From positions 1 to 64,000 of the forward strand of contig NZ_ALBQ01000004.1 in the NCBI RefSeq assembly GCF_000282895.1: a DNA stretch of 64,000 nt, given 5' to 3'. Under the pieces are notes generated by a model that saw nothing but the letters and a program-made list of their open reading frames with translations, was not told the origin of the DNA and did no database searches. This document shows positions 2,977 to 44,614 of the stretch, piece by piece (positions within the stretch are counted from its first letter, which is position 1; every line of letters begins with the position of its first letter). Source of the stretch: Sphingomonas sp. ATCC 31555 (lineage in GTDB: Bacteria; Pseudomonadota; Alphaproteobacteria; Sphingomonadales; Sphingomonadaceae). The translations under genes and the position numbers were made by a program.

Positions 2977-3036
2977 GCCCAGGATGCTGACCGGCGTCGC
3001 CGGTCAGCACCATGAGGCGTTTGACGTACGCGACCG

Positions 3037-4596
3037 TCAGTCGATAGCGATGCCGTGCGCGGTAAAATAGGCGGCGACGGGTGCCAGCGCCGCCGCGTGC
3101 CGCCGCCATCGCGCCACCGAGTCGCCGTAGATCGGGCGGCGCACCTGCGCGGCGCTGGGGGTGGAAACCGCCCCGCCCTGCGTATGGAAATCGAGGCAAG
3201 CATCGCTCCAGTCGAGCCGGCAGTGGTCCAGCAGCCGCCGTGTCTGCCCGGCCTGATCGGCAACGAGATCCTCGTAGCGCAGTTCCAGGATACGGCCGGG
3301 CAGTTCCGCCCGCCAAAGCGCCATCAATCGTTCGAAGCCTGCGACATAGGCGGCGATTTCCAGGAGATCATAACTATAGTCGTAATAGCGCGAGCCGATC
3401 GCGAACAGGTTGCGGAAATTGGCCAGCACCGTGTCCATGGGGTTGCGACGCAGGCAGACGATCGCCGCACTCGGCAGCGCCCGCGCCGCGATGCCGGCAT
3501 AATGGAAGTTGCCGGGAAACTTGTCGACGAAGCGTCGCTCCGGCGCGCGCCGATGATGTTCCGCCCGTGCCAGATAGTCGCGGCCGATCGCGCCGAGATC
3601 GGTGCTGGCGGCCGCGTGCAGCGTTTCAGGATCGAGCACCGTGCGGCTGCGCGTACCTGCGGCAGCCTTTACCGCCAGCGGCAGCGCTTGAAGCTCGCCG
3701 ACGCTTTCCACCGCCGGATGCGCGGCAAGGATGCGATCGACCAGCGTGGTGCCGGTGCGCGGCATGCCGATGATCAGGATGGGCGCCTCTTCGGGACAGC
3801 CCGTCGCGGGAGCGGCGGCAAAGGCGGGCCAACTTGCCGCCACGGCCTCGACGATCGCCGCATCGCGCGCGGGATCATAGCCGAGCGTAGCGCGATGCTC
3901 GGTATTGACGGCGAGCAAGCAGGCCAGCGCTTCGTCCGCCCGGCCGATATCCTCCAGTTCCTTCGCAAGCGCATAGCCGGTCAACAGCCGGTCGCTCCCC
4001 TGCGCGCGGCCGTGGGCGCCCTGCAGTCGCACGACATGGTTACGATCCTCCCGCTGCTTGCGCAGTCCCGCGAGGAGGTGGTGCGCGCGGGCATGATCGG
4101 GACTGCGCGCGAGCAGCATCTCCAGCGCCCCTTCGGCATCGTCGGTGCGGCCGAGGAAGCTCAGCGTCGCGGCCTGGTTGTAGAGAAACTGGTCGTTCTC
4201 CGGCGCTAGCGCTACCGCCACCGCAAAGTGCGGCAGCGCGGCTTCATGGTCGCCCAGCCGGGCATAGACGCAACCGATCGTATCTCGCGACAGCGCATCC
4301 GCGGGCGGGTTCGCCTCCGTCGCCGCCAGCTGCACCGCCGCATCGCCGTCGCGGCGCACCAGCGTATAGAGCCGGGCGAGCTGCGCCCGATATTCGCTGC
4401 GCGGATCCTGCCCCACCGCCGCTTCGATTCGCCGGATGGCCTCGCCGATCCGTCCCTGCTCCGCCGCGATCACGCCGAGCACGAACCCCGCTTCGGCTGC
4501 GCTTTCCGATGCGCTCAGGCACGCGGTGGCGATACGCGCCGCCCGGTCGAAATCCCCTTGCTCGAGCGCCGCCCGCGCCCCTGCCGCACCGCTCAT
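3037..4596 (-). CDS. TPR repeat-containing sulfotransferase
   Basis: 519 residues. About residues 1-240 are tetratricopeptide-like helical repeats. From about 275 comes a sulfotransferase domain with the 5'-phosphosulfate-binding loop GMPRTGTT and a 3'-phosphate motif around LRRNPMDTVLANF, both needed to bind the sulfate donor PAPS. The acceptor is unknown; members of this family in alphaproteobacteria often modify proteins or surface polymers. The ATG at 4596 overlaps the stop of the response-regulator gene as ATGA, so kinase, regulator and sulfotransferase are probably one operon, which is unusual company for a sulfotransferase. Confidence 0.85.
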   Translation of the reverse strand: MSGAAGARAALEQGDFDRAARIATACLSASESAAEAGFVLGVIAAEQGRIGEAIRRIEAAVGQDPRSEYRAQLARLYTLVRRDGDAAVQLAATEANPPADALSRDTIGCVYARLGDHEAALPHFAVAVALAPENDQFLYNQAATLSFLGRTDDAEGALEMLLARSPDHARAHHLLAGLRKQREDRNHVVRLQGAHGRAQGSDRLLTGYALAKELEDIGRADEALACLLAVNTEHRATLGYDPARDAAIVEAVAASWPAFAAAPATGCPEEAPILIIGMPRTGTTLVDRILAAHPAVESVGELQALPLAVKAAAGTRSRTVLDPETLHAAASTDLGAIGRDYLARAEHHRRAPERRFVDKFPGNFHYAGIAARALPSAAIVCLRRNPMDTVLANFRNLFAIGSRYYDYSYDLLEIAAYVAGFERLMALWRAELPGRILELRYEDLVADQAGQTRRLLDHCRLDWSDACLDFHTQGGAVSTPSAAQVRRPIYGDSVARWRRHAAALAPVAAYFTAHGIAID

Positions 4597-41147: not shown

Positions 41148-41773
41148 CAGGCGAAATCCGCAAGGTCGAAGGCGCCGGCGAAGGCTTGGGCGAGCGCCGC
41201 GGGGGTGAGCTCGGACAGCATCGGCAGGCGGCCGAGACGCTTGACCTTGCCAATCGCGGCGATGGTCGCCTCGCTGTCCTCGACCGGATCGCCGACGAAC
41301 GCGATGCCGTGGATCGGCACGCCGCGCGACCTCAGCGCCTCGATCGAGAGCAGGCTGTGGTTGATCGTGCCGAGCGCGGTGCGCGCGACCAGCACCACCG
41401 GCTTGGCCCAGCGCGCAAAGACGTCGGCGTAGAGGATCTCGCGCGTCACCGGCACCAGCGCACCGCCTGCGCCTTCCACCACCAGCGGCCCGTCGACCGC
41501 GGGCAGCGCGAGGCGATCGAGGTCGATGGTGACACCGTCGATTTCGGCCGCGAAGTGCGGCGAGCAGGGCGTGACCAGACGATAGGCTTCCGGGAGGATG
41601 TGCCCGATCGGCAGGCCCGAGAGCGCTGCGGTACGTTCGCTGTCGCTGCCGTCGTCGAGCCCGGCCTGAACGGGTTTCCAGTAGCGCGCGCGCAGCGCAC
41701 CGGCGAGAGCTGCGGCGAACACGGTCTTGCCGATGCCGGTATCCGTACCGGTGACGATGAAGGTCTGGGTCAT
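41147..41773 (-). CDS. bioD: dethiobiotin synthase
   Basis: 208 residues. P-loop GTDTGIGKT at residues 8-16, and [11 protein letters not shown] for substrate and metal binding. It closes the ureido ring of biotin's precursor using CO2 and ATP. ATGA overlaps join it to both bioF and bioA. Confidence 0.95.
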
Positions 41774-42912
41774 GCTGCGACGGGCTCGGTTGCGGGGAGA
41801 AGCGTCGCCAGCCGCTCCGCGAGCGCGGCGATCTGGCCATGCGACACATTGTTGGTGATCGAGATGCGCAGGCGCGAGGTGCCTGCGGAAACGGTCGGGG
41901 GGCGGATGCCGCGGACGTCGAAGCCGCTGTCCTGCAGCGCGCCAGCGATCGCCATGGTCCGCACATCATCGCCGAGGATCAGCGGCAGGATCTGGGTATC
42001 ACCCGCCGGTACGCCGAGCGGCGCAAGCGCGGCGCGGGCGGCGGCGACCCGCTCGGCCAGCGCGGACCGGAGGTTGTCCCCCTTTGCCACGATGCGCAGC
42101 GCCGCGCGCACGGCGGCGGCCATCAACGGCGACGGCGCGGTGGAGAAGATGAACGGCCGGCCGCGGTTGACGAGGAAGTCGCGGACGATCGTCGGGCCGG
42201 TGACCAGCGCGCCTTCGCAGCCCAGCGCCTTGCCGCAGGTGTGCAGCGTGATCAGGTTGGCGGTCGGCAGGCCATAAGCCAGCCCCTGCCCCTGCGGGCC
42301 GTAGACCCCGGTCGCGTGCGCCTCGTCGACGAGCAGAATGGCACCTTCTGCCTCGGCCAGCGCCGACAGCGCGGCGAGCGGCGCGACATCGCCGTCCATG
42401 CTGTAGAGGCTCTCGACCGCGATCCACACGCGTCCCGCCCCGCCCTCGCGACGCCAGCCGGCGATCGCCTCCGCGAACGCGGCAACGTCGTTATGCGGAG
42501 CCTGTCGGGTTTCCGCGCGCCCAAGACGCATGCCCTCATGGGCGCTCGCGTGGACGAGTTCGTCGAACAGCACGAGGTCGCCGCGCTGGGGCAAGGTCGC
42601 GAGCAGCGCTGCGTTGGCCGCATAGCCGCTGGAGAAATACAGAGCCGACTCGCGGCCGAAGAACGCTGCTGCTTCGGCCTCCAGCGCTTCGTGCTCGGGA
42701 TGGTTGCCGCGCAGAAGCCGCGAGCCGCCCGAGCCGATCGGTACGCCGCGCGCCAGCGCCGCCGCCACCGCTTCGCGCAGGGCCGGCGAGTCGGATAGGC
42801 CGAGATAATCGTTGGACGCGAAGTCCGCGCCCTCGCGGGCGATCAGCCGGCGGCCGCGTCCGCGCGCAGCGAGATCGGCAAGGTCGCGCGCCTGTGCTTC
42901 GAATGCGTGCAT
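41770..42912 (-). CDS. bioF: 8-amino-7-oxononanoate synthase
   Basis: 380 residues, alpha-oxoamine synthase family. Condenses pimeloyl thioester with alanine. The PLP Lys is in [22 protein letters not shown] and [16 protein letters not shown] are the other signatures. ATG 42912 was preferred to an in-frame start 12 codons earlier because the family starts here and the longer form begins with an atypical tail. Upstream lie two 17-base palindromes shared with the divergent DAHP synthase gene. Confidence 0.94.
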
Positions 42913-42963
42913 CGCCGCGCGGCTACACCCGGCCGCGCCCGCGTGCAATCGATCCGCTCGCCT

Positions 42964-42980
42964 TTACCCCGTCGGGGTAA
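42964..42980. promoter_or_regulatory. palindromic operator candidate 1
   Basis: TTACCCCG-T-CGGGGTAA, a perfect 17-base palindrome, 52 bases before bioF and 45 bases before the divergent gene. It matches the site at 42999-43015 in the pattern TTACCC-N5-GGGTAA. Confidence 0.6.
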
Positions 42981-42998
42981 GAAAAAGCTTGCACATGT

Positions 42999-43015
42999 TT
43001 ACCCCAGCCGGGTAA
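42999..43015. promoter_or_regulatory. palindromic operator candidate 2
   Basis: TTACCC-CAGCC-GGGTAA, 35 bases (start to start) from candidate 1, about three to three and a half helical turns. It ends 9 bases before the ATG at 43025, so a protein bound here would block expression of the helix-turn-helix/DAHP synthase gene, and the pair could also control bioF. Confidence 0.58.
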
Positions 43016-43024
43016 GCGGCCGGT

Positions 43025-44614
43025 ATGACGACGTTAGCCGGTTCCAAGATCCGCCAGTTTCGCGAGGAACGCACCCTCACCCGCGCCGCCTTCGGTGCCT
43101 GGTTCGATACGCCAGGCTCGACCGTGCAAGGCTGGGAGACCGACGGCAAACGCGCCAACACCAAGGTGATGAATCAGATAGCGGCGATGGGAATCGCCGA
43201 GCATGCGGACTGGCACGTCGCCGTCCGCGACGTGGAGAGTGCAATGGCAAGCTGGACCCCCGATAGCTGGACGCGCGCCGAAGCGCGCCAGATGCCGCAA
43301 TATCCGGACAAGGGCGCGCTCGACGCCGCCACCCGGCAGCTGAGCAGCTACCCGCCGCTGGTCTTCGCCGGCGAGGCGCGCGAGCTTACGGGCGCACTCG
43401 CCAAGGTCGCGCGCGGTGAGGCGTTTCTGCTACAAGGCGGTGACTGCGCCGAGAGCTTCGCCGAGTTCCACCCCAACAATATCCGCGACACCTTCCGCGT
43501 GATCCTGCAGATGGCGGTGGTGCTCACCTTCGCCTCGAAGCTGCCTACGGTGAAGCTCGGCCGCATGGCCGGCCAGTTCGCCAAGCCGCGCTCGGCCGAT
43601 ACCGAGGTGATCGACGGCGTCGAGCTGCCCAGCTACCGCGGCGACAATGTCAACGACATCGCCTTCACGCCGGAAGCGCGGATCCCCGATCCGCAGCGGA
43701 TGGTGCAGGGCTACAGCCAGTCGGCCGCGACGCTCAACCTGCTCCGCGCCTTTGCGAATGGCGGCTATGCCAATTTGCATCAGGTCCACAAGTGGACGCT
43801 CGACTTCATGGGCAAGAGCCCCTGGTCGGCCAAGTTCGCCGATGTCGCGGACCGGATCGGTGAAGCGCTCGACTTCATGGAAGCGTGCGGGATCAACCCG
43901 GATACCGTGCCGCAGCTCAAGGGCACCGATTTCTACACCAGCCACGAGGCGCTGCTCTTACCCTATGAACAGGCGCTGACCCGGCAGGACAGCCTGACCG
44001 GCGACTGGTACGATACCTCGGCGCACTTCCTGTGGATCGGCGACCGCACCCGCTTCGAGGGCTCGGCGCATGTCGAGTTCCTGCGCGGCATTGGCAACCC
44101 GATCGGCATGAAGTGCGGGCCGAGCCTCGAGCCTGACGCACTTCTGCGGCTGCTCGACACGCTCAACCCCGGCCGGGTGCCGGGGCGGATGACGCTGATC
44201 ACCCGCTATGGGCATGACAAGATCGAGGCGGGCCTGCCTAAGCTGGTCCGCGCGGTGAAGCGCGAGGGCCATCCGGTGGTGTGGAGCTGCGATCCGATGC
44301 ACGGCAACGTCGTCAAGGCGGCGAACGGCTACAAGACGCGGCCGTTCGACCGGATCCTCGCCGAGGTGCGCGGCTTCTTCGCCGTCCACCGCGCCGAAGG
44401 CACCTTCGCCGGCGGCATCCATGCCGAGATGACCGGGCAGAACGTCACCGAGTGCACCGGCGGCGCGATCGCGATTACCGAGCAGGGTCTGGCCGATCGC
44501 TACCACACGCATTGCGACCCGCGCTTGAACGCCGGTCAAAGCCTGGAACTAGCCTTCCTGCTTGCCGAAATGCTTAACGAAGAAATGGCCGAACGCCGCA
44601 AAGCTGCAGCATAA
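43025..44614 (+). CDS. aroG: class II DAHP synthase with N-terminal helix-turn-helix domain
   Basis: 529 residues in one open frame. From about residue 74 (MASWTPDSW) it is a complete class II 3-deoxy-D-arabino-heptulosonate 7-phosphate synthase of about 456 residues ([45 protein letters not shown]), first step of the shikimate pathway. Residues 1-70 look like an XRE-type helix-turn-helix ([20 protein letters not shown], then [11 protein letters not shown]). An internal ATG at 43244 with GGAGAG 5 bases upstream could start the plain enzyme, so the gene may yield a fusion, the enzyme alone, or both. The two palindromes just upstream are candidate binding sites for the extra domain. Confidence 0.85.

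Follow-up and report, generated by a model that had tools for sequence, protein, structure and literature searches.

Does Sphingomonas sp. ATCC 31555 make the entry enzyme of its shikimate pathway as a protein that also binds DNA and, if so, to which DNA would such a protein bind? The question is raised by positions 43025-44614 (forward strand) of the window, by which is meant the whole 64,000-nucleotide stretch that was analysed. A single frame of 529 amino acids lies here, running uninterrupted from an ATG to a TAA; because an in-frame TAA stands directly upstream (43013-43015), 43025 is the first ATG. The Pfam family for class II DAHP synthases, PF01474, matches residues 77-514 over the full length of its profile (1-438 of 438, 687.4 bits), and the frame passes TIGR01358 with a score of 690.8 against a cut-off of 614.7. 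Residues C141, H426, E468 and D498, which we take to be the metal-binding ligands of class II DAHP synthase, align with identical residues in 2b7o and 5uxm. The closest solved enzyme is 5uxm, presumably PA2843 of Pseudomonas aeruginosa. Its residue 6 aligns with frame residue 73, which leaves 72 additional residues in front; residue 34 of 2b7o, the AroG of M. tuberculosis, aligns with residue 85. The DAHP synthase core can be aligned nearly end to end with both enzymes, but neither has a counterpart of the head.

The first-pass annotation had described an HTH-type domain in uninterrupted frame with a class II DAHP synthase, and both the analysis of 43025-44614 and its relatives bear this out: the homologues carry the extension, with no stop between the two parts. 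Read from its profile and fold matches, the frame joins a Cro/CI-type HTH head (residues 1-70) to a complete class II DAHP synthase (residues 77-514). The fused gene is the sole class II DAHP synthase gene found in its genome. A second DAHP synthase was considered and rejected, the lone PF00793 match being KdsA (TIGR01362, 402 bits); a very divergent one could escape such a search. The long form would be a bifunctional protein, with catalysis and gene control performed by one polypeptide.

The head (residues 1-73 of the long form; 43025-43243, forward strand) stays under the curated cut-offs of the Pfam HTH families, with 18 against 27 bits for PF13560 (E=0.0035) and 12.8 against 23 bits for PF01381. 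An AlphaFold model of the whole protein, built with 25 similar rows, gave a mean pLDDT of only 37.6 and was set aside; the head modelled as a separate domain gave 93.8. The solved folds nearest to this model are mostly XRE/Cro/CI proteins, for example P22 c2 (Z 7.8, rmsd 2.7 over 63 residues), HigA and the 434 repressor, though the Z scores, at 8.2 or less, lie in a range prone to unspecific matches and the best Foldseek E value is only 0.023. C-protein folds and the enzyme HppE are also among the structural matches, and a search of the solved structures by sequence with an HTH profile gave no match. As modelled, the head of the fused protein has a Cro/CI fold. Its sequence appears to have been held mostly under purifying selection. 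Over 1,485 pairs among 55 distinct fused loci (9 of 64 loci were removed as duplicates; L090 is included) the median pN of the head is 0.13 and the median pS 0.52, a ratio of about 0.25. The mean pN/pS is 0.275 over the 1,106 of these pairs with pS between 0.2 and 0.6, one of which reaches 1.69.

A candidate for the DNA that the head would bind lies directly in front of it. Between the ATG of the head and the divergent bioF are two palindromes, at 42964-42980 and 42999-43015. The first, putative operator site 1, is the perfect palindrome TTACCCCGTCGGGGTAA and the only site in the genome without a mismatch. The second, putative site 2, is TTACCCCAGCCGGGTAA; it ends 9 bp before the ATG and overlaps a putative -10 sequence. 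The pattern TTACCC-N5-GGGTAA accompanies the fusion with great regularity: in each of the 55 distinct fused loci site 2 stops 8-12 bp short of the ATG, and its best score is 12 of 12 in 47 of them, 11 in seven and 10 in one. Upstream of 42 unfused loci the same palindrome scores at most 9 of 12. A score of 10 is reached by 3 of 1,100 shuffled fused upstream regions, none of which goes higher, and by one of 55 control windows inside the gene; this is the level of the single fused locus (L007) that scores only 10. The co-occurrence of operator and head strongly suggests DNA binding by the 70-residue extension, to which the first-pass annotation had given an XRE-type identity. That annotation makes no mention of the operator, although the gel-shift target that it named (42950-43025) does contain it.

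It could be argued that the head is vestigial and does not bind DNA, and that the palindromes serve another regulator, for example one of bioF. The sub-threshold Pfam scores of the head would fit, as would the existence of HTH-like domains on enzymes such as HppE, which need not regulate, and the position of bioF opposite the fused gene. However, the operator is present in all 55 fused and none of the 42 unfused loci, bioF is adjacent only in a close clade, the head is mostly under purifying selection, and similar palindromes are found at the phage-borne relatives discussed below. We consider a vestigial head very improbable. A role for the head as regulator of biotin genes was likewise rejected, since bioF adjoins few loci, whereas the operator goes with the head: with short flanks, bioF is present in 16 of 150 loci, of which four are the window itself and the remainder belong to its close clade. 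In this clade only, bioF (41770-42948, reverse strand) is divergent to the fused gene, and the operators could there also touch bioF.

The position of site 2 bears on the sign of the regulation. TTGC at 42989-42992 (forward strand) has a conserved spacing to site 2, beginning 8-10 bp before it in 52 of 55 fused loci, and is the putative -35 core of a promoter. A scan upstream of the fused gene with the sigma-70 consensus found no promoter. If TTGC is the -35 sequence, then the -10 would coincide with the right half of site 2, putatively at 43012-43017, and transcription would begin about at the ATG; such a promoter and a leaderless start of the long form are read from conservation only. Since site 2 lies over the putative -10, its occupation should block RNA polymerase. 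The target is probably a single one. Sites with zero to two mismatches occur in the genome only at the promoter of the fused gene, where there are two, so this gene alone is the likely target. A wider regulon was considered and found no support: with up to three mismatches there are 13 forward and 15 reverse matches, fewer than the 33 and 32 obtained with a reversed-pattern control.

Site 1 is more variable, scoring 11-12 of 12 in 40 of 55 fused loci, with a start-to-start spacing to site 2 of 32-36 bp, and under 11 in the other 15. C proteins act as activator-repressors, and their folds are among the structural matches of the head. This resemblance, together with the two-site layout and the place of site 1 directly upstream of the conserved TTGC, raises the alternative that the head acts on the operator as an activator or an activator-repressor, with site 1 activating and site 2 repressing. 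However, the universal site is the one over the putative -10, site 1 is weak in more than a quarter of the loci (15 of 55), and the NadE fusions described below have the promoter-proximal site only. Activation by the head seems rather improbable to us.

The likely source of this arrangement is indicated by standalone relatives of the head. These are present in 4 of 250 Sphingomonas genomes and on two IMG/VR virus contigs (L151-L154, L158 and L159). In all six loci the head is faced by an opposing gene whose XRE domain passes the Pfam cut-off, and is followed by a Toprim gene; three loci have a CHC2 primase domain besides Toprim, and in L152, which has CHC2, the Toprim match is just below cut-off. 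The standalone heads occupy what reads as the cro position of a lambda-like switch. The two phage heads are 50 and 55% identical to the head in the window. By eye, TTGC, a palindrome-like TACCC/TCCC repeat and, about ten bases on, an ATG can be recognised upstream of all six; the palindromes are imperfect in five, and L151 has a perfect CTACCC-N5-GGGTAG. These Cro-like genes of sphingomonad phages and phage-like elements resemble the fusions in their related HTH, in an MTTLAG-KIR start in three of them and in their promoter-palindrome-ATG layout, but they stand alone, with 77-124 residues from an MT..AG-type start and no enzyme attached. In a tree of the HTH, which has few columns and modest support, the DAHP synthase heads group in a single clade (48 rows, SH-aLRT 93), and the standalone heads are placed as its neighbours.

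More distant searches gave little. PHROGs returned weak HTH matches, with best E values of 9e-5 for a standalone head and 7.6e-4 for the window head, and none for a NadE head. Among annotated phages the window head has six weak matches, all of Listeria, Enterococcus or Streptococcus (best E 2e-4), and the standalone head from G047 has none; a search of plasmids for the head found none. The simplest account of the origin of the head would be the capture of a whole promoter-operator-repressor cassette. A phage or phage-like Cro-like gene may have given the head, the TTGC promoter, the operator and, probably, the leaderless ATG together, by an in-frame capture upstream of the DAHP synthase in an ancestor of the Sphingomonas/Stakelama lineage.

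A head of related sequence also occurs on a second enzyme. Frames of 762-1050 residues that carry it are found in 51 of 397 genomes of the family, which belong to other Sphingomonadaceae genera. The start motif of glutamine-dependent NAD synthetase (NadE) is present in 19 of 21 such long-frame loci (the exceptions are L094 and L105). All three NadE-type loci that were run against Pfam have CN_hydrolase and NAD_synthase domains, and the one of these run against NCBIfam passes the NAD(+) synthase cut-off. A palindrome, GTATCC-N5-GGATAC, is found upstream of 21 of 21 NadE-type loci, with 12 of 12 positions matched in 19 and 11 in two. The distance from its end to the next ATG is 9-10 bp in 16 loci and 2-3 bp in five. 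The palindrome is preceded by TTGC at 9-10 bp in 17 of 21. The second-best palindrome in 150 bp scores 8 of 12 or less in every one of the 21 loci. In the region of the recognition helix, NadE heads read SRT(V/I)YGWE and DAHP synthase heads GSTVQGWE; the combination of a different recognition helix with a different operator would fit heads that each recognise a site of their own. Thus, the NadE fusions share with the DAHP synthase fusions a related head, one palindrome near the ATG and TTGC upstream, but differ in the enzyme, recognition helix and operator sequence, in having one site only and in a weaker internal ribosome site, many loci having a GAAAG-like stretch before an internal Met, a weaker signal than the GGAG of the DAHP synthase fusions. 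The phage Cro-like relatives and this second fusion go beyond what the first-pass annotation had noticed.

A further standalone head was seen in G131 (L155, 2480-2701). It starts with MKHKAGSKLRQWRE, matches the DAHP synthase-type profile with an E value of 5.6e-7, and has as neighbours an opposing gene of CI-like appearance and, following it, a Toprim gene. The phage ancestor from which the NadE heads came may have been related to this head.

From the conserved arrangement of head, operator and promoter, we think it likely that a phage-type cassette was captured in frame and that the fused DAHP synthase binds its own promoter and lowers its own transcription. The heads, paired by the enzyme oligomer, would occupy site 2, and site 1 where present, once there is sufficient long form, and the promoter would be shut; site 1 would add cooperative binding. 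Plain autoregulation by the amount of protein would suffice to explain the sequence evidence. A special case of this autorepression would be a ligand-gated one, in which binding depends on the substrates or on aromatic amino acids, much as the first-pass annotation had suggested with its sensing of flux or of an aromatic amino acid. On the identity assumed above for 5uxm, the core may have an allosteric site, given that PA2843 is described as tetrameric and subject to inhibition by Trp (PMC6435475). The sequence has no feature that calls for such gating, however, and NadE, with unrelated ligands, is similarly arranged; ligand gating is possible but somewhat doubtful. Competition of head pairing with enzyme assembly would be another possible signal to an autorepressing fusion.

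The fused gene may have a second product. An internal ATG (43244-43246, residue 74) lies where unfused enzymes start, six nucleotides after a Shine-Dalgarno-like GGAG (43234-43237, forward strand), and could give a short form of 456 residues (43244-44614, forward strand). Of the 48 fused loci with the internal Met, 45 show GGAG-N6-ATG, corresponding to 28 of 31 distinct sequence contexts; among the exceptions GGAG is at a distance of 8 in L024 and 3 in L089 and missing in L088. By comparison, GGAG at a spacing of 4-9 precedes none of the 644 further in-frame ATGs that the core has at 23 distinct positions (the unfused row L143 gave no valid start in this comparison). Ahead of the Glu the residue may be L, V, T, A, S or M, yet its codon always ends in G (54 loci, 47 with the internal Met; L005 is not included). 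These loci are related and hence do not represent independent events. The conserved GGAG-N6-ATG suggests selection for a short form. Of the short form that the first-pass annotation had proposed, the internal start with its GGAG stands, conserved at the DNA level, but not as a general feature of the fusions, the internal Met being absent in 7 of 55 fused loci. In most lineages, then, the internal start would probably yield a second, head-less enzyme, and repressor-bearing and plain subunits could share one oligomer.

The same signal can be read as that of a two-product gene, in which the short form is the sole working enzyme, the long form is a mere regulator and the fusion serves to couple translation. 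The frequency of GGAG-N6-ATG, the G conserved despite varied preceding amino acids and the lack of GGAG at other core ATGs are all in its favour. However, PF01474 is complete in the long frame, and four of the genomes whose fused gene has no internal Met (G039, G057, G331 and G359) have no other DAHP synthase that could be found, so that in these the long form should be the working enzyme. A purely regulatory long form therefore seems unlikely, and an autorepressing enzyme, in most lineages with a head-less partner, is the reading that we prefer. Loci without the internal Met are mostly also without a strong site 1 (6 of 7, against 9 of 48 of the others; Fisher p 0.001, uncorrected for kinship), the upstream regions concerned being L015, L022, L057, L060, L085 and L086. 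Site 1 may be of importance only to loci that make a short form.

An enzyme with a DNA-binding domain that acts on its own gene is a kind already known. PutA and BirA are autoregulatory trigger enzymes, in which a metabolic enzyme regulates genes of its pathway through a DNA-binding domain; they have other DNA-binding domains, other pathways and known ligands. The likeness to the DAHP synthase fusion lies in a metabolic enzyme carrying a DNA-binding domain, whereas the head of the fusion is phage Cro-like and probably has just one target promoter in its genome. Other bacteria regulate entry into the shikimate pathway with separate repressors. A closer parallel in architecture is offered by the fusions of C proteins with restriction endonucleases, in which a small controller head sits on an enzyme and acts on its own promoter, an action that is predicted in the DAHP synthase case. 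For CR.NsoJS138I, experiments demonstrated both activities, western blots showed no sign of any product other than the full-length protein, and competition between head pairing and enzyme assembly in such fusions is discussed (PMC3850674). There the partner is a restriction enzyme, the system is mobile and the tested action is activation; the DAHP synthase and NadE partners, in contrast, are chromosomal and biosynthetic, and the internal start is conserved in the DAHP synthase fusions. Searches of a library of open-licence papers turned up no description of an HTH-DAHP synthase or HTH-NadE fusion.

If autorepression is true, then the enzyme at the entry to the shikimate pathway would have its DNA-binding regulator on the same polypeptide, and this would be a clear case of a phage switch working on core metabolism, twice in one family. 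If two unrelated enzymes have each captured such a head, feedback control may be gained by a route that is both general and cheap, and a possible use would be as a ready-made self-limiting expression module. A broader proposal, to which we give somewhat less than an even chance, is that complete phage autoregulatory cassettes, with promoter, operator and Cro-like repressor, have been captured in frame by essential biosynthetic enzymes at least twice in one family, with nested products and mixed oligomers reporting the amount of enzyme, and perhaps its ligand state, to the promoter.

How widely the fusion has spread can be judged from several sets of genomes. The head is held by 107 of 250 Sphingomonas genomes, by 105 in a frame of 529-664 residues and by one in a frame of 371 residues. 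Long head-bearing frames (371-664 residues), the sizes expected for a fusion, are thus present in 106 of 250, and in G940 the head is standalone only. Among the carriers with a species or genus name are Sphingomonas trueperi, S. azotifigens, S. pituitosa, S. pokkalii and Stakelama species. When the genome itself and 60 congeners were compared, 26 had full-length matches from residue 1 or 2 (its own included), 29 had matches starting at residue 51-75 and four had none; G012 has a fragment beginning at residue 2, and G040 just fragments from residue 50 on. In the class, a profile of the DAHP synthase-type head matched 3 of 387 genomes, all of the same family (E up to 1e-8), in a search of limited sensitivity that missed NadE-type heads in the same genomes (for example G111). 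At the level of the order, 61 of 297 genomes hold the head. Other fusion partners were looked for in these 297 genomes and rejected, head-bearing frames being only DAHP synthase-sized (531-588 residues), NadE-sized (766-863) or short (85 and 108), with the identity of the partner taken from checks on part of the frames.

A tree of the enzyme core (50 fused and 42 unfused rows, without identical and short cores) needs at least three changes of the fused state, so a single origin would require losses or gene transfers. An unfused locus, L129, is nested in a fused group with moderate support; the operator is missing there along with the head. By eye, upstream stretches that are TTCGTTGCG-like and GCGCATGG-like are shared by many of the unfused DAHP synthase genes of Sphingomonas (L027-L030 and L111-L134), and are perhaps another control element of this gene. 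Two fused loci are irregular. In L048 (Sphingomonas sp. 7/4-4, 3001-4401) the fused frame stops early, at 467 residues, with an altered C-terminus, owing to a frameshift either of the gene itself or of its assembly. In G026 a second copy of the fused gene (L157, C1:3913923-3915503), matched in three pieces, lies on the same contig as the intact copy, and is a duplicate or an assembly overlap.
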